A stretch of DNA of 41,290 bases, taken from an uncultured SAR86 cluster bacterium (lineage in GTDB: Bacteria; Pseudomonadota; Gammaproteobacteria; Magnimaribacterales; D2472). The notes beneath the pieces were generated by a model, which was not told the DNA's origin, did not search any database, and saw nothing but the letters and a program-made list of their open reading frames with translations. The stretch spans positions 1-41,290 of the forward strand of contig CABXJR010000006.1 of the NCBI GenBank assembly GCA_902512655.1, given 5' to 3'. How positions within the stretch are numbered: the stretch's first letter is position 1; the number at the start of each line of letters is the position of its first letter. The position numbers and the translations under genes were made by a program. Of the stretch, positions 11,280 through 35,678 are shown one piece after another.

Positions 11280-11874
11280 ACAAAGTTTGCAATAAAATTA
11301 ATAATCCTAATCCAGCAATAAAGGCTGATGAAGCAAACTGGATATTATCAGAATGCTTATTAAATATATCACCCAATGAGTGGTGAGTTAATGCATAAGT
11401 CACAAAAGAAAACCATGCTGCAGTAATGAGTGGGAAATATAACAAATAGATGATAGACATTAACGAACTTGGATCAAGATTTATAAAAGAGAACAAAGAA
11501 ACAGTAAATAAAAATGCTTTTATATTTAATAAATTAGTTACCAAACCAATCACAAAAGGATTTTTAAATATGACCTTTGTTTCATCAGATTTAGATGATT
11601 TTTTTGAAATAAAAAAGCTAATTCCAAGATAAAGCAAATATAAAGCCCCCAAACATTTAACAAAAAACTTAGCTTCTTCAGAGGTGTAAATTAATAATGA
11701 AATTCCAGAAATAGCAAAAAAACAGTGTATAAATATACCAAAACCTATACCTAGAGCTGTAAGAATTCCCTGGGTTCTGCCTTTAGCAAACGATTGATGA
11801 AAAATAATGGCAGTATCTGGACCGGGTGACATTACGGCTAATAAATGAGCTAAAGCTGCTGAAAAGAAGATCAT
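11266..11874 (-). CDS. LysE/RhtB-family exporter
   Basis: LAVMSPGPDTAIIFHQSFAKGRTQGILTALGIGFG; multiple TM helices. Confidence 0.88.
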   Translation of the reverse strand: MIFFSAALAHLLAVMSPGPDTAIIFHQSFAKGRTQGILTALGIGFGIFIHCFFAISGISLLIYTSEEAKFFVKCLGALYLLYLGISFFISKKSSKSDETKVIFKNPFVIGLVTNLLNIKAFLFTVSLFSFINLDPSSLMSIIYLLYFPLITAAWFSFVTYALTHHSLGDIFNKHSDNIQFASSAFIAGLGLLILLQTLYGLL

Positions 11875-12839
11875 GATGAAATGATCTCAGGCTCTATTTC
11901 TAATTCAACATTAAATTTATTAAATATTTTTATTACAATCTGATCTAGCAAATTCTTTACATCATCAAATGATGCTTTGCCATTATTGATAACTACAAGT
12001 GAGTGATACTCATAGATACGCAAAGTTTCAGGGATGCTTAATTCAGGCTTGATAAGCTCGATTAATCTAGCTGCACTCAGTTTAGTCATTCCATTGTCTT
12101 GCTCCCACCTATGCCCAATTAAAAAATTTCTATCAAAATCATTGGTTTTTACTAAAGGATTTTTAAAAATGCTACCGACATTTGGCTCTAACCGCGGATC
12201 AGGCAATTTAGAATTTCTTATATTTCTTACAGACTCAGAAAGCAATTGTGGGGTAAGAGAATTTGTATCAATAGAATTATCTATTAAATAATTAGCTAAA
12301 GCTGGGTAACTTAAATTGGGCTCAAATCTTTTATGAAAAATAAAATTAACTTTTAAAATAATATAATTATTTGATTTAAAGATTGAATTTCGATATTCAA
12401 ATTTACATTCCTCCCTTTCAATGGTTTCTTGTTGCTGTGTAAGCAAATTAAAACATTCAACACTATGAATAAATGAACTGACCTCAACTCCATATGCACC
12501 AATATTTTGAACAGGCGCGGCACCCACAGATCCAGGAATATGAGTTAAATTTTCTATTCCGTATAAATTATTGTTTAAGCAGTATTCAATAAAATCAGCC
12601 CAATCCACTCCCCCGCCTACTGAAAGGTAATCTTCATACATTTTTATATCTTTAAAATTAACTTGAACAATAGTTTTATCAATATCTTTGTTCAATATTA
12701 CGTTTGTACAAGCGCCAAGAATTAATATCGAGTTATCTTTGATTGAATCTAATTTAGATAAATCCTCAGAAGTGTCTATGCTTAAGAAATTTTTTGCATT
12801 TACTGTTAAGCCAAAAGAGTTAGGAATAAGCATAATCAA
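11871..12839 (-). CDS. murB: UDP-N-acetylenolpyruvoylglucosamine reductase MurB
   Basis: ILGACTNVIL, GIENLTHIPGSVGAAPVQNIGAYGVEVSSFI, PNVGSIFKNP. Confidence 0.93.
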   Translation of the reverse strand: MIMLIPNSFGLTVNAKNFLSIDTSEDLSKLDSIKDNSILILGACTNVILNKDIDKTIVQVNFKDIKMYEDYLSVGGGVDWADFIEYCLNNNLYGIENLTHIPGSVGAAPVQNIGAYGVEVSSFIHSVECFNLLTQQQETIEREECKFEYRNSIFKSNNYIILKVNFIFHKRFEPNLSYPALANYLIDNSIDTNSLTPQLLSESVRNIRNSKLPDPRLEPNVGSIFKNPLVKTNDFDRNFLIGHRWEQDNGMTKLSAARLIELIKPELSIPETLRIYEYHSLVVINNGKASFDDVKNLLDQIVIKIFNKFNVELEIEPEIISS

Positions 12840-13573
12840 TCATTCTTCTTAGCAAATGCTCTCGCGACCTCTAAATCTTCGGGAGTATCAATACCAATAG
12901 GAGCTTCACATTTAAAATCTTGTACAAAGATATCAAATCCATTATCTAAAAAACGTAATTGTTCTAATTTCTCTGATTCTTCATTTGCGGTTGGCTTGAG
13001 CGCACTTAATGCTTGAAGAGTTTTATTGGTGTAAGCGTATATCCCAAGATGCTTCAAATGATTTTGAGAGCCTTCGTTAGGTGAGTTTGGTATAACGGAC
13101 CTAGAAAAGTACATGGCTTTTTTTGAAACTGATCTAACAACTTTCACCTCATGAGGGCTATTTATATCCATATTATCTGTAAATTTAATGCATGCTGTAG
13201 ATATGGGAAAATCATCGCTTAAAAGCGTAGGTAGTTGATTGATGATCTCTAAAGGCATGAAGGGTTCATCTCCTTGAAGATTAACAACTGGGACATCATC
13301 TGGTAAATCAAGTGTTTTTGCAGCTTCAGCAATTCTATCCATGCCAGAAACATGATCTGATGAAGTCATCACGACATTCGAACCGCAGGATCTACAATGG
13401 TCTGCTATATCTGTGCTATCAGTTGCAATATAAACACTTGCAGCATTAGATGAATTTGCTAAATCTATGATGTGAGAAATTACAGTGCTCTCATTAATCA
13501 GCGCTAATGGTTTATTAGGTAAACGAGTAGAGCCGGCCCTAGCCGGGACAATAATTACAAAAGAATCAGTCAT
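12836..13573 (-). CDS. kdsB: 3-deoxy-manno-octulosonate cytidylyltransferase KdsB
   Basis: VIIVPARAGSTRLPNKPL, VVNLQGDEPFMP, HLKHLGIYAYT. Confidence 0.94.
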   Translation of the reverse strand: MTDSFVIIVPARAGSTRLPNKPLALINESTVISHIIDLANSSNAASVYIATDSTDIADHCRSCGSNVVMTSSDHVSGMDRIAEAAKTLDLPDDVPVVNLQGDEPFMPLEIINQLPTLLSDDFPISTACIKFTDNMDINSPHEVKVVRSVSKKAMYFSRSVIPNSPNEGSQNHLKHLGIYAYTNKTLQALSALKPTANEESEKLEQLRFLDNGFDIFVQDFKCEAPIGIDTPEDLEVARAFAKKND

Positions 13574-13730
13574 TCAAGGAAAAAATTCTTTCCTCAATCA
13601 TTCTAGGGATATCGTCTTCAACTGGATAGCCAATATTGCACTGAGAACACTCCAAATGATTCTCTTTATCAATTAGTTTTGACTTGCATCTAATGCATCC
13701 CATAATATTTAAAATATCCTTATCTATCAT
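13566..13730 (-). CDS. Trm112/YcaR-family zinc-ribbon protein (54 aa; not in the supplied ORF track)
   Basis: MIDKDILNIMGCIRCKSKLIDKENHLECSQCNIGYPVEDDIPRMIEERIFSLND; CxxC...CxxC and 'YPVEDDIPRMI'; located between lpxK and kdsB as ycaR is elsewhere. Confidence 0.88.
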   Translation of the reverse strand: MIDKDILNIMGCIRCKSKLIDKENHLECSQCNIGYPVEDDIPRMIEERIFSLND

Positions 13731-16476
13731 TTAACTTCTCCTCTAGCCTATCAACAAACTGGGATTCTATTTTAGACTCAATACTAAGATACCAAATCTT
13801 TGAGTTATTAAAATGTTTACATTTAGAAGCATCTTTCTCAGTCATTAAAATAGGAAGATGATCAAGATAATATAAGTCCCTTTTATTATATTTATGATGA
13901 TCGGGAAATGGATTTTTATCAAACTCAAAACCTAACCTTAACAATAAATCAAAAAACCTATTCGGATTACCAACTCCGGCAATCGCATGGACTTGATTAT
14001 GCATAGGCCACTTATCTACAGAATACTCTTTACCAGAATTTAAGTGAATGAATTTAGCAGGACTAAGGGTCATTAAAATTTCATCTCCTTCTGTTGGGCC
14101 ACCATTGTTAACAATAAAATCAACTTCTGAAAGTCTAGACTTAGGCTCCCTGAGTGGGCCTGCAGGAAAAGCCAAACCATTTCCTAGCCTTCTTGCTCCA
14201 TCAATGACAGCAATTTCAATATCCCTGCCCATTGCATAATGCTGAAGGCCATCATCAGAAATAATTACATCCACATTATGTTTGTCTTGCAATTTTCTTG
14301 CTGCCCTAGACCTATTTTTATCAATAAAAAATGGGATATTTAATTTAGCTAAAATTTGAGCTTCATCTCCCGTTTGTTTGTATGTGGTTTCAGAAGTAAC
14401 TTCTAGCGTTCCAGAATACTTACCACCATACCCCCTGCTTACTAGTCCAGGTTTAAAGCCTCGTTTAGCTAGTTCATTTGCAATAAATTTAACTAAAGGG
14501 GTTTTGCCGGTTCCGCCCATTGAAATATTGCCAACAACAATAATAGGTTTAGAGGAGTTCCAAACTTTTTTAGGGTTCCTTATGTAAGAATTCCTTCGTA
14601 CCTTAACCAAGGATGAAAATAATAAAGTAAGTGGAGCCAAAATATATAACCAAAAGCTTTTGTTGTACCAGGCATCAATTAGATAGCCTTGCTGAGATGG
14701 CTCTTCAGTAAATGTTGGAAGGTACTCCTTGCTAACAGATTTTTTTGATGGCTTTTTTGGATCTCCAGAATCATTGAATTTATTTTGATATAGGCTCTTG
14801 TAGATACCATCCTGATCTAATAACTCATCATGAGTTCCTGACTCAGCAACTGAACCATTATCTAAAACTATAATTTTGTCTGCATTTTCAATAGTTGAAA
14901 GTCTATGAGCAATAACGATAGTGGTTCTATTATTTATTAATTGCTCTATTGCCTCTTGCACAATTAATTCAGATTCATTATCTAGCGCTGAAGTAGCTTC
15001 ATCTAAGATAATAATTGGTGAATCTTTATAAAAGGCTCTAGCTATTGCTATTCTTTGTCGTTGACCGCCAGATAACAAGACACCATCATCGCCTATTTCA
15101 GATTTAAAGCCCTCCGGAAGCCTTGAAATAAACTCATTGCAGCCAGATATTTTAGCTGCCTCTTTTAATTTTGCTTGATCAATATCGTTATCACCATAGG
15201 CAATATTTTTTTCAATGGTGTCATTAAATAAAGTTGGTGATTGATTGACTATTGAGATGGATTTTCGGAGATGGGATAACTGATAATCTAATATACTTAC
15301 ATCATCTATAGAGATTTTTCCCGAGTAATCAGAATAAAACCTTGAAATCAAATTAGCAATTGTCGATTTCCCTGATCCAGATTTCCCAACAATAGCAATT
15401 GTTTCATTTTGAATAATTTCAAAATTTAAATTATCTAAGACAGATTCTTTGGAGTTATATGCAAAAGAAACATCTGAAAACGTAATATTTCCTATAATAT
15501 CTGAGTCTAACTCGCCTGTGTCTTGTTCTTCTTTTGCGTCCAATTGATCAAAAATTTCTACGGCTGCTGCTAACCCTTTTTGAATTACAGCATTAATATT
15601 TGAAAGTTGCCTAATCGGTTTTGCCATTAATCCCGCTGCAGTTATAAAAGCAACAAAATCTTCAGCGCTTAGCTCTATACCTAGTTGTGAGCCCAATGCA
15701 AAATAAGCAACAATAGATAATGAAACTGAAACTAGAAGCTGAATAATAGGTGTTGCTAAATTGCTGGTTGCTTCAAGTTTTAAATTTTGATTTTTATTTG
15801 AAGCATTGGCAGCTAGGAATCTATCTTTTTCATATTTTTCAGCATTAAATGACTTAATTTCTAGATTTCCATCAACTGCTTCAGATGCAAGATGGGTTAC
15901 ATCCCCCATGGCTGTTTGAATTCTTTTCGCCAATTTTCTTAATCGTCGACCAGCAACATATACTATTAATGCTATAAATGGGGTGGTGATTAACAAGAGC
16001 AGTGTTAACTTCCAGTTTAAAGTAAGCATATAGGCTAGTAAACCGACAAGAAGAAACCCCTCTCTTACGAAAGTCTTAATAGCATTTGAGGCAGCACCTG
16101 AAACTTGCGTAGTGGTAAAAGTAATTCTATTAATCAGTTGGCCTGATTGATTTTGATCAAAGAAATTCTTAGGAAGGTTAATTAGTTTTGAGAATAGCTC
16201 AGATCTAAGATCATGGACAATGCCGAACCCAACCCTAGACATAAAATAATTACCAATAAAAAAGCCTGAACCTCTTCCCATTGCAATAAAAATTAATGCT
16301 AGGACAAGATATATGCTGAAATCATCTTGATCAGAATTGATATATTCAATAATTCTTCTAATCCATTCAACAGCAGCAATGTCTGCCGATGCAAAAAGAA
16401 TAAAGCCAAAGATACTTAAGATAAATGAAAATTTAAATCTAAAGGTATACGAAAATAGTCTCTTTAAGGGATTCAT
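13720..16476 (-). CDS. msbA-lpxK: MsbA (lipid A ABC flippase) - LpxK (tetraacyldisaccharide 4'-kinase) fusion
   Basis: One 918-aa ORF: ABC TMD/NBD (VGKSGSGKSTIANLI, LLSGGQRQRIAIARA, IIILDEATSALD) followed by full LpxK (YLIDAWYNKSFWLYILAPL, IIVVGNISMGGTGKTPLV, SRGYGGKYSG, DDGLQHYAMGRDIEI, FPAGPLREP, AIAGVGNPNRFFDLL, FPDHHKY, LMTEKDASKC). Confidence 0.93.
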   Translation of the reverse strand: MNPLKRLFSYTFRFKFSFILSIFGFILFASADIAAVEWIRRIIEYINSDQDDFSIYLVLALIFIAMGRGSGFFIGNYFMSRVGFGIVHDLRSELFSKLINLPKNFFDQNQSGQLINRITFTTTQVSGAASNAIKTFVREGFLLVGLLAYMLTLNWKLTLLLLITTPFIALIVYVAGRRLRKLAKRIQTAMGDVTHLASEAVDGNLEIKSFNAEKYEKDRFLAANASNKNQNLKLEATSNLATPIIQLLVSVSLSIVAYFALGSQLGIELSAEDFVAFITAAGLMAKPIRQLSNINAVIQKGLAAAVEIFDQLDAKEEQDTGELDSDIIGNITFSDVSFAYNSKESVLDNLNFEIIQNETIAIVGKSGSGKSTIANLISRFYSDYSGKISIDDVSILDYQLSHLRKSISIVNQSPTLFNDTIEKNIAYGDNDIDQAKLKEAAKISGCNEFISRLPEGFKSEIGDDGVLLSGGQRQRIAIARAFYKDSPIIILDEATSALDNESELIVQEAIEQLINNRTTIVIAHRLSTIENADKIIVLDNGSVAESGTHDELLDQDGIYKSLYQNKFNDSGDPKKPSKKSVSKEYLPTFTEEPSQQGYLIDAWYNKSFWLYILAPLTLLFSSLVKVRRNSYIRNPKKVWNSSKPIIVVGNISMGGTGKTPLVKFIANELAKRGFKPGLVSRGYGGKYSGTLEVTSETTYKQTGDEAQILAKLNIPFFIDKNRSRAARKLQDKHNVDVIISDDGLQHYAMGRDIEIAVIDGARRLGNGLAFPAGPLREPKSRLSEVDFIVNNGGPTEGDEILMTLSPAKFIHLNSGKEYSVDKWPMHNQVHAIAGVGNPNRFFDLLLRLGFEFDKNPFPDHHKYNKRDLYYLDHLPILMTEKDASKCKHFNNSKIWYLSIESKIESQFVDRLEEKLNDR

Positions 16477-16478
16477 GA

Positions 16479-16883
16479 CTAATCAGTATAAGTTTTAATC
16501 TGTATGTTTTGAAATCCCAACTGTTGCAGACCATCCATTAAGCTTATGACCCACTGATGATAGGCTTTGCTTTCTATAGAGAGAACAACAACTTCTGATT
16601 TAGAAAAGGTTGCAGAAACTCCAGCCATTAATTTATCAATCTCTGTCATGGAAAATTGTTGATTATTAATTATGAGTACTCCTGATTCTAATAAAATAAT
16701 ATTTTGAGAGTTATTTGATAGAGCTGATGTAAATGATTTAGATTCAGGAAGGTCTAAAGTTAGATATTGGTTTGTTTCTATTTTTGATGTAACAACAAAA
16801 AAAATCACAAGAAGAAAAACAATATCTATCAAGGGCGTAATTTCAATTGAAAGAGCTCTTTCTTTATTATTATAAAATTTCAT
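16479..16883 (-). CDS. exbD: ExbD/TolR-family biopolymer transport protein
   Basis: [26 protein letters not shown]. Confidence 0.88.
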
Positions 16884-17482
16884 TTTTTATATAGAAAATC
16901 TAAATAAATTGACGTATTAGCTTGCAAGATTGACATCAAAATTACAGTTTTTTGCTCAAAATATCTATAAAAAACAATAGCTGGTACTGCAATAATTAAC
17001 CCAAAAGCAGTTGTGATTAAAGCTTCTGAAATTCCGGCTGCAAGCAAATCTGTATTTGCAGAGCCATTCACGTCAATATTACTAAAAACGGTTATCATCC
17101 CAACAACAGTTCCTAGAAGTCCCAGCAAAGGACTAATGCTTGCTATTGTGCTCAGCATCGATAAATTTCGTTCAAGGAGTAATTTAATTTCTGAAGCTTT
17201 CTCTTCGGCTTTTATCTCAACAAACTCTCTTGAATTTAAACGGTATTGATAACAATGCTGTAGCAAATCACCTAATTGAGATGTTGCTGCAATTTGTTGC
17301 TGATTTTGAGTGTGAAAAGAATCTTTTTGAATTAAATTTTGCGCCTGTCTTAACAATCCTTTTGGTGCAACCAACCTCCTCTGCAAAAACCAAAGTCTCT
17401 CAAGCACTATTGAAATAAGTAAGATAGAACAAACAAGCAAAGGCCAGATAAACCATCCACCGGATAATAATAAATTATTCAT
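16880..17482 (-). CDS. exbB: MotA/TolQ/ExbB proton channel family protein
   Basis: [27 protein letters not shown]...[25 protein letters not shown]. Confidence 0.88.
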
Positions 17483-17483
17483 T

Positions 17484-18161
17484 TTATGCTGACTTTAAAT
17501 CTCCATTCTCAATACGAAATACTTTGTCCAGTTTACCAGCATAATTTAAGTCATGAGTTGCAACCACAATACCTATATTATGATTTTGAGCTAATTTAAT
17601 AGTTAAGTTTTGAATTACTTCAGCATTCTCATGATCTAAGTTGCCGGTTGGCTCATCCATTAATACAAATTTTGGTTCATGGACCACAGCTCTCGCAATA
17701 GCAACACGTTGTCGCTCACCCCCTGAAAGCATATATGGGTACTTATCTTGTAATGCAGCAATTCCAAGCTCATCAAGAATCTGCATGATTTGTTTAGAGT
17801 TTTCATCCACTTTCTTATTATTGGCAATCTTAAAAACTAGATTACAGTTTTCAAATACGGTTAGATCATCTAACAAATAATGAAATTGGTATGCATAGCC
17901 AAATAAATTACCCCTCATAAAATTAAAATTCTTTGCATTATTAGATGATAGATTGATGTCATTGAAATAAATATTGCCCTGGTCAGGCATCTCCAATCCA
18001 GCAAGAATTTGCAAAAGTGTTGTTTTGCCACTTCCAGAATAGCCAATAACCCCAATTGAATCGCCCTCGGAAATAGAAAATGAGATATTTGATAAGACCT
18101 CAGTTTGATGGTCTCCCGATTGATAAGTTTTACTAATATTTGAGGCTGTAAGTTTATTCAT
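17484..18161 (-). CDS. lolD: Lipoprotein-releasing ABC transporter ATP-binding protein LolD
   Basis: Walker [52 protein letters not shown]. Confidence 0.92.
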
Positions 18162-19392
18162 GGCGTAAAATAGTTACAGGCTTCAACTTAGCTGCTCTAG
18201 CTGCCGGAAAATATGAAAATATTAAGCTCATTGCAAGAACAGAAAGGCATATATATACAAGTTGAGTTAATCTAAATTCATATGGAAAGTAATTGATGAA
18301 GTAACTATCCATTAAACTTCTGTTACTAAAAATTTCTATAATATTAATTAGCTGATCTATATTAGGAGTTAGTAAAATCCCTATCAATAACCCAATAAAT
18401 GTCCCTAAAAATCCAATAATTAGACCTAAGTTTAAAAAAATAAATGTAAGTTGATTTTTTGAACAACCCATAGTTTTTAAGATAGCAATCTCTTTTTCCT
18501 TGGTTTTAACAGTCATTACAATGGTTGAGAGGATATTAAAGGCAGCCACTGTAATAATTAAAAAGAGCATAAGACTAATTAATCTTTTTTCTAATTTTAT
18601 GGCTTGAAATAATGTTCCATGAGTCTGTTGCCAAGAAGTAAAATAATAATGGTCTTCATTTAGAAATGGTTGAGTCAGCAAATTAAAACCAAGTGAATTA
18701 GCAGCAAATAAATCATTGGTTTTAACTCTGATGCCTTGGGTAGTATTTTTTGGAAGGTTCAAAATGTTAGCTGCTAAATCATGATGAATTAAAACAAGCG
18801 ATTGATCTAATTCAGCTTTAAGTTCAAATATGCCAACAATCTTTAAATAAATAGTCCTTGGAAAAGTTCCTATAATTGAAGAACGTAAATTGGTTGTTGT
18901 GATATTGACCGTATCGCCAACCTCTACTCCTAGGTACCTAGCTAACCAAGAACCTACAATCACTCCTTTATTTGAAGAAATATTATCCAATGACCCGCTA
19001 GTCATATATTGTGGAAGAATAGACATGGAAGCTTCTAACTCAGGCTTAATTCCTGTAACAAAAATGCCTCTTGATCTATTTTTGGTGCTCATTAATCCCT
19101 GAGTTTCGATATAAGGACTCGCACTGATAACATTTTCTGCGCTGCTTATCTTAGAAATCAATTCCTCGTAATTATCAAGATTTTCATTAGATCGAATAAT
19201 CAATTGAGGAACTACGCCAAGAACTCTAGTTTGTAATTCCTTCTCAAAACCATTCATGACAGATAAGACGATAACTAATGCGGCGACACCAAGTGAAAGA
19301 CCAGCAGTAGCCATCAAAGAAGTAAAGGATGCAAATGCACCCTTCTTTGATCGAAAATACTTGTAGCCCAAGTAAATAGGCAATGAGTTCAT
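18154..19392 (-). CDS. lolC: LolC/LolE-family lipoprotein-releasing permease
   Basis: YLGYKYFRSKKGAFASFTSLMATAGLSLGVAALVIVLSVMNGFEKEL; FtsX-like C-terminal membrane domain; adjacent to lolD. Confidence 0.88.
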   Translation of the reverse strand: MNSLPIYLGYKYFRSKKGAFASFTSLMATAGLSLGVAALVIVLSVMNGFEKELQTRVLGVVPQLIIRSNENLDNYEELISKISSAENVISASPYIETQGLMSTKNRSRGIFVTGIKPELEASMSILPQYMTSGSLDNISSNKGVIVGSWLARYLGVEVGDTVNITTTNLRSSIIGTFPRTIYLKIVGIFELKAELDQSLVLIHHDLAANILNLPKNTTQGIRVKTNDLFAANSLGFNLLTQPFLNEDHYYFTSWQQTHGTLFQAIKLEKRLISLMLFLIITVAAFNILSTIVMTVKTKEKEIAILKTMGCSKNQLTFIFLNLGLIIGFLGTFIGLLIGILLTPNIDQLINIIEIFSNRSLMDSYFINYFPYEFRLTQLVYICLSVLAMSLIFSYFPAARAAKLKPVTILRHE

Positions 19393-34412: not shown

Positions 34413-35012
34413 ATGTCATTAGAAGAGCTTAGGGTAATAACAATTGTTTATGTTAGCGCCCTTGCTCCTCTAATTATTTATTTTTACAAAAAAGATAAAA
34501 TTCCGCTCTGGGTACCATCAGTATATTTGGGATCATTTCTTGTCTGCTCTTTAGGCTGGGAGCTTTGGTTTACCTATGGTTGGATTGAAGGCGATCCAGT
34601 TAATTTAAGAAGATCAGATACTCTAAACATATGGATTCCTTTGCATATAAATTGGCTATTAAACTCAATGGCAGATGCAGGAACTATTTCACTTGGAGGA
34701 CTCTGGTTAATGTGGAGATACAGTGGAAAAAATTTTCAAGTCTTTCAGCAATGGAGCTGGTCTGCATTTAGTATTTTATTTATCTGGTGCATTGCACAGA
34801 ATCTTTTTGTGGAGCTATTTTTGTATCATGATCAATTATCTGAGGGCAAATTACTTTCATGGGCTCCTCTGGCTCCCACAGGCCAATTTTTTAACCCACT
34901 AATATTTGAATTCAATCAAAGAAATGTAATGTTTCAAACTCAACTACCTTGGTTAATTTTGCCAGGTATTTTATATTATTCAGTTATTAAAATAGTTGGC
35001 TCAAATAAATAA
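34413..35012 (+). CDS. Hypothetical polytopic membrane protein (199 aa)
   Basis: Several hydrophobic helices; no recognised family motif; 4 nt after the DUF4177 gene. Confidence 0.7.
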   Translation: MSLEELRVITIVYVSALAPLIIYFYKKDKIPLWVPSVYLGSFLVCSLGWELWFTYGWIEGDPVNLRRSDTLNIWIPLHINWLLNSMADAGTISLGGLWLMWRYSGKNFQVFQQWSWSAFSILFIWCIAQNLFVELFLYHDQLSEGKLLSWAPLAPTGQFFNPLIFEFNQRNVMFQTQLPWLILPGILYYSVIKIVGSNK

Positions 35013-35297: not shown

Positions 35298-35678
35298 CTA
35301 GGCAACAAGGTTATACCCAATAAATGCTCCGACAAGAACACAAACTCCTATCATCAGCCAGTATTTAAAATCTCTATTGCTTAAATATTGATACACTATA
35401 CCCTCGCTATCACTAGCAGTTATAAATAAGCCGTTTATAAAAGAAAATCCAAATGCTATTTTTAAACTTTCTCCAGTTGGTATTTGAAAAGTTTCATTCA
35501 TTTGCATTGACCAACTTGTCTTATCATGAACAAGCTCATCATTGATAAATACTTGCTCCACTGCCTTCCAATTTGCGTTTCTTACAACAACCTGATTGCC
35601 TTTATAATTAAAAGCAAACGTGACCCAACCTAAGCTTTGTTTGGGGCCATTATCATTTTCTTTTTTGTTACTCATCAT
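35298..35678 (-). CDS. Hypothetical protein with one C-terminal TM helix
   Basis: 126 aa; soluble beta-rich-looking domain then YWLMIGVCVLVGAFIGYNLVA; same strand, 12 bp upstream of the HTH gene. Confidence 0.65.
   Translation of the reverse strand: MMSNKKENDNGPKQSLGWVTFAFNYKGNQVVVRNANWKAVEQVFINDELVHDKTSWSMQMNETFQIPTGESLKIAFGFSFINGLFITASDSEGIVYQYLSNRDFKYWLMIGVCVLVGAFIGYNLVA

Follow-up and report, generated by a model that had tools for sequence, protein, structure and literature searches.

The window, that is, the whole 41,290-nucleotide stretch of SAR86 DNA analysed here, carries on its minus strand an unbroken run of envelope genes (11871-19392) in the order lolCE, lolD, exbB/tolQ-like, exbD/tolR-like, msbA-lpxK, ycaR-like, kdsB and murB, several of which overlap by a few bases. 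The features of the fused gene and of its neighbours are as follows.

13720..16476, minus strand: msbA-lpxK fused gene (P0001), 918 aa, stop codon at 13720-13722
14773..16476, minus strand: MsbA half, residues 1-568, six-helix membrane domain and ATPase domain (TIGR02203)
15361..15387, minus strand: MsbA Walker A GKSGSGKST, residues 364-372, invariant in 25 SAR86 fusions
14686..14772, minus strand: polar linker, about residues 569-597, placed from the SAR86 comparison and AlphaFold pLDDT
13723..14685, minus strand: LpxK half, residues 598-918 (PF02606 at 611-915, TIGR00682 at 617-906)
14599..14670, minus strand: N-terminal membrane helix of LpxK, residues 603-626, including the invariant Pro615
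14500..14532, minus strand: LpxK P-loop GNISMGGTGKT, residues 649-659, from the alignment of fusions
16880..17482, minus strand: exbB/tolQ-like gene (PF01618)
16479..16883, minus strand: exbD/tolR-like gene, just upstream of the fused gene (PF02472)
13570..13731, minus strand: small Trm112/YcaR-like gene, just downstream and overlapping the end of the fused gene (PF03966, over cut-off)
12836..13573, minus strand: kdsB, CMP-Kdo synthetase (TIGR00466, over cut-off)
11871..12839, minus strand: murB (NF000755, over cut-off)

At the upstream end of the run (17484-19392, minus strand), a single LolC/E-type permease gene (412 aa, TIGR02212) adjoins lolD. Judged at this locus alone, the lipoprotein-release transporter may use one permease in place of the LolC and LolE pair. 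Elsewhere in the window, the open frames at 34413-35012 (199 aa) and 35298-35678 (126 aa) had no Pfam match.

The fused frame starts with an ATG and runs for 918 codons without interruption. The original prediction had described an uninterrupted MsbA-LpxK ORF at 13720-16476, and both the frame and the coordinates were correct, the minus strand being a detail missing from it; each half scores above its NCBIfam equivalog cut-off. MsbA (1-568) is followed by a polar linker of about 29 residues and by LpxK (598-918), with the Pfam domains ABC_membrane at 18-284, ABC_tran at 347-496 and LpxK at 611-915. Read from its sequence, the gene encodes a single-chain MsbA-LpxK, that is, a kinase and a flippase in one protein. 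The source genome is fragmentary (43 contigs, 72% complete), and no second copy of the LpxK half was matched in what is present of it. Comparison with related species revealed strong purifying selection on both the MsbA and the LpxK halves (pairwise dN/dS of about 0.03-0.05), the linker values being mostly above those of the two domains.

The MsbA half is covered from residue 5 to residue 568 by the MsbA_lipidA equivalog model TIGR02203 (629.6 bits, cut-off 602), while the narrower MsbA model NF008381 stayed below its threshold (531.5 of 867). Its closest solved relative is the P. aeruginosa MsbA structure 9bd6 (E 2e-160). The ATPase motifs are intact (Walker A, signature, catalytic Glu and H-loop: K370, S469, Q472, E493 and H524), K370 aligning with K382 of E. 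coli MsbA. Furthermore, R68, R138 and R289 stand at the positions of E. coli R78, R148 and K299, basic residues that belong to the lipid A pocket, and these positions are always basic (R or K) in the SAR86 fusions aligned. Taken together, the MsbA half looks functional as a lipid A-core flippase. As a separate observation, in the aligned fusions of the SAR86 family f4 (L134-L138) LSGGE replaces LSGGQ, so that the position of E. coli MsbA Q485 holds E; f4 is also the longest branch within SAR86.

The LpxK half scored 313.7 bits against PF02606 (cut-off 27) and 244.1 bits against the lpxK equivalog TIGR00682 (cut-off 91.95), and in the alignment it begins where E. coli LpxK itself begins. LpxK activity requires the N-terminal membrane helix (PMC6286764); in the fused protein this helix is present and includes Pro615, the equivalent of E. 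coli LpxK P18, found in all the fusions aligned. The P-loop residues K658 and T659 are kept by all of them, bar one ambiguous base. In A. aeolicus LpxK, mutation or structure has pointed to K51, T52, R72, D99, E100, D138, D139, H143 and H261 as catalytic or substrate-binding residues (PMC6286764). These correspond to K658, T659, R681, D704, E705, D741, D742, H746 and H860 of the fused protein, with D741 and D742 as the Walker B Asp pair, and all nine are conserved across the SAR86 fusions aligned. As had been anticipated, the LpxK half is complete and has its P-loop; the N-terminal membrane helix and the catalytic residues checked are also in place, and from these motifs the half looks functional as a 4'-kinase.

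Since the linker exits the cytoplasmic ATPase domain, the N-terminus of LpxK is expected to be cytoplasmic. This suggests that a half-inserted LpxK helix fits better than a membrane-crossing helix that starts outside or in the periplasm. A cytoplasmic N-terminus is consistent with the published picture of LpxK, in which the enzyme associates with the membrane and has an amphipathic helix at its N-terminus (PMC6286764). The linker itself, whose sequence the original prediction had quoted exactly, is variable in sequence and nearly constant in length across SAR86, and AlphaFold confidence drops there (pLDDT 26-37 at residues 571-600). The whole-chain model, built with 25 close sequences, is weak (mean pLDDT 62, pTM 0.36) and does not fix the placement of LpxK relative to MsbA, so we claim no interface between the two. 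A structure search with this model returned, among the matches listed, only MsbA itself and ABC exporters related to it.

In the lipid A pathway, LpxK yields lipid IVA, to which Kdo is attached by WaaA and further chains by late acyltransferases before MsbA exports the product (PMC12444477). We found genes for WaaA (PF04413) and a late acyltransferase (PF03279) in all 20 SAR86 genomes checked, which supports the earlier statement that the fusion joins non-consecutive steps and rules out that LpxK and MsbA became consecutive through loss of the intervening ones. LpxK has no activity on Kdo-bearing substrates (PMC6286764), and the kinase is for this reason not expected to pass its product straight to the flippase. 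In most of the SAR86 genomes checked, waaA and the late acyltransferase gene are back-to-back neighbours on opposite strands (e.g. G000:C2:121577-123095).

SAR86 is an abundant group of ocean bacteria, and the fusion extends throughout the order. LpxK was matched in 158 of the 203 SAR86 genomes searched, in most of them once, and the genomes lacking a match were mostly incomplete. Of about 150 SAR86 LpxK rows listed, only four fall outside open frames of about 890-966 aa; three of these four shorter frames are cut off where a contig ends, and in the fourth (L146) the break is in the transporter part and the junction remains open. The fusion is present in all four SAR86 (Magnimaribacterales) families, and no reversal to separate genes was seen among the species of these families. 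The MsbA-LpxK fusion is a clean marker of the SAR86 order.

The search for the same architecture in other genomes, which the original prediction had put forward as a check, also retrieved lineages beyond SAR86. Uninterrupted MsbA-LpxK fusions were found, searching with the fused protein, in six further gammaproteobacterial families: f49 (G104), f63 (G252), f68 (G123), f89 (G144, with G568 and G569), f157 (G322, G417) and f166 (G237). Three of these families hold both states, with separate adjacent genes in G267 (f89), G212 (f157) and G118 (f63). A long open frame in G423 was rejected as a fusion, being an overlapping spurious frame. Most of the 369 gammaproteobacterial genomes of a class-wide draw have a separate lpxK gene, and the two genes are adjacent and separate in E. 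coli and many other gammaproteobacteria, as had been stated to be the normal arrangement. No fusion was found outside Gammaproteobacteria in a 398-genome phylum sample, where very distant fusions would have escaped the E-value threshold.

The fused state needs 4-5 changes on a tree built from concatenated MsbA and LpxK, with supports from a quick search. An AU test of all fused rows as one clade gave p = 0.07, and pairwise groupings gave p = 0.043 for SAR86 with f68 and p = 0.36 for SAR86 with f89. There were probably several independent origins of the fusion, by stop loss between operon neighbours; we grade this as probable and not as proven because the p of 0.07 does not quite reject a single clade. 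In many gammaproteobacteria the msbA and lpxK frames are in the same frame across a short gap with usually exactly one stop, in a set biased by the search that chose it, which read through stops. For such pairs, a single point mutation would fuse msbA and lpxK.

Considering all the above results, we think it likely that the gene encodes one bifunctional inner-membrane kinase-flippase that arose by stop loss and that brings 1:1 synthesis and co-location rather than substrate hand-over. The MsbA half would dimerise and flip lipid A-core, while the LpxK half would be anchored by its own membrane helix at the cytoplasmic side and yield lipid IVA by 4'-phosphorylation. The flexible linker of about 29 residues would join the ATPase domain to the LpxK helix and, by tethering LpxK to each MsbA chain, would place two kinases on every MsbA dimer. 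We infer that kinase and flippase are both active when joined in this way. The stop codon between the adjacent operon genes was most likely lost before the SAR86 families diverged, and the main effect would probably be a fixed 1:1 synthesis and the co-location of the membrane kinase with the flippase. A direct substrate hand-over is not favoured, since separate enzymes transfer Kdo and acylate the intermediate between the two steps, and substrate channelling by MsbA-LpxK is hypothetical.

Two readings would remove the single chain altogether. An assembly or sequencing error could have deleted a stop codon at the msbA-lpxK junction, and the fragmentary state of the source genome would fit such an accident; an open junction is however shared by far more than 100 independent SAR86 genomes, including single-cell and single-contig ones, which reduces the probability of an artefact to practically nil. 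Alternatively, the frame might give two ordinary proteins, through cleavage after translation or through a start of LpxK inside the frame. Between the linker and the P-loop this gene has two in-frame GTG/TTG codons, and a few such codons at the junction are what this reading has in its favour. It has no ATG in that stretch, though, and neither a conserved start codon (start positions vary between related species) nor a conserved linker motif was found across SAR86, where the frame is always open and the linker length hardly changes. Hence two separate products are very improbable, and the earlier claim that a separately initiated LpxK is unlikely holds.

The remaining readings accept the bifunctional chain and differ on what it brings. 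Stop loss between translationally coupled neighbours may simply have done no harm and drifted to fixation in a streamlined genome, leaving a tether with no function of its own; this concerns the benefit only, and both halves would still work. The many gammaproteobacterial pairs lying in frame and usually exactly one stop apart, even if drawn from a set biased towards read-through, speak for such a neutral history, as do the poor sequence conservation of the linker and its dN/dS, mostly higher than in the domains. Against it stand the lack of any reversal among species of four SAR86 families, the nearly constant linker length in SAR86 and the similar fusions in other lineages. Nevertheless, retention and recurrence fit selection and tolerance alike, because fission needs both a new stop and a new start, and we give the neutral account an even chance. 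At the other extreme, the fusion could be a coordinating unit that matches flux to export, either by keeping lipid IVA synthesis and the export of lipid A at one site, a tie that the original prediction had raised, here together with WaaA and LpxL, or by letting the ATPase cycle of MsbA regulate LpxK. That two steps of one pathway are joined, in several lineages and with order-wide retention in SAR86, agrees with this possibility, and LpxK depletion in Acinetobacter baumannii was reported to cause a build-up of toxic intermediates (PMC12444477). It is nonetheless unlikely, given that the two steps are non-consecutive, that LpxK refuses Kdo-bearing substrates (PMC6286764) with no direct hand-over expected, and that the weak AlphaFold model gives no interface. 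In its strong form, in which the flippase ATPase cycle gates the kinase or WaaA and LpxL gather around it, so that completion and export of lipid A are physically coupled in SAR86 and independently so in the other lineages, we regard the idea as doubtful.

On the preferred reading of a bifunctional kinase-flippase, our findings suggest that holding the kinase and the flippase in one chain is tolerated and may be of advantage to them, and nature here provides a tethered pair with which one can ask whether synthesis and export of lipid A are coupled in space. Magnimaribacter mokuoloeensis HIMB1674 is available as an isolate of SAR86, and the main text of its description mentions lipopolysaccharide once (PMC11582366).

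We found no description of an MsbA-LpxK fusion in the open-licence literature; the combination of domains may already be on record in public annotation databases. The novelty is in the architecture, as both component families are already known. Compared with MsbA (TIGR02203), the fused protein shares the full length, all the ATPase motifs and the basic residues checked, and adds a C-terminal extension of 350 residues that is a second enzyme. Compared with free LpxK (PF02606, TIGR00682), it likewise spans the whole enzyme, N-terminal membrane helix and checked catalytic residues included, but its N-terminus is attached to the ATPase domain of MsbA. The E. coli locus has the operon ycaI-msbA-lpxK-ycaQ followed by ycaR and kdsB, and the order msbA-lpxK, then ycaR and kdsB, matches that of the window. 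The E. coli genes msbA and lpxK share a transcript (PMC10328246). They overlap by 4 bases in different frames and give two proteins, both essential in E. coli, whereas in SAR86 they share one frame. A further parallel is the LpxC-FabZ fusion of Bacteroidetes, Chlorobi and Verrucomicrobia (PMC3087551), in which neighbouring lipid A-related genes were likewise fused and fixed in large lineages; that protein, however, joins the committed-step deacetylase to a fatty-acid enzyme, whereas the one described here joins a kinase to an exporter.
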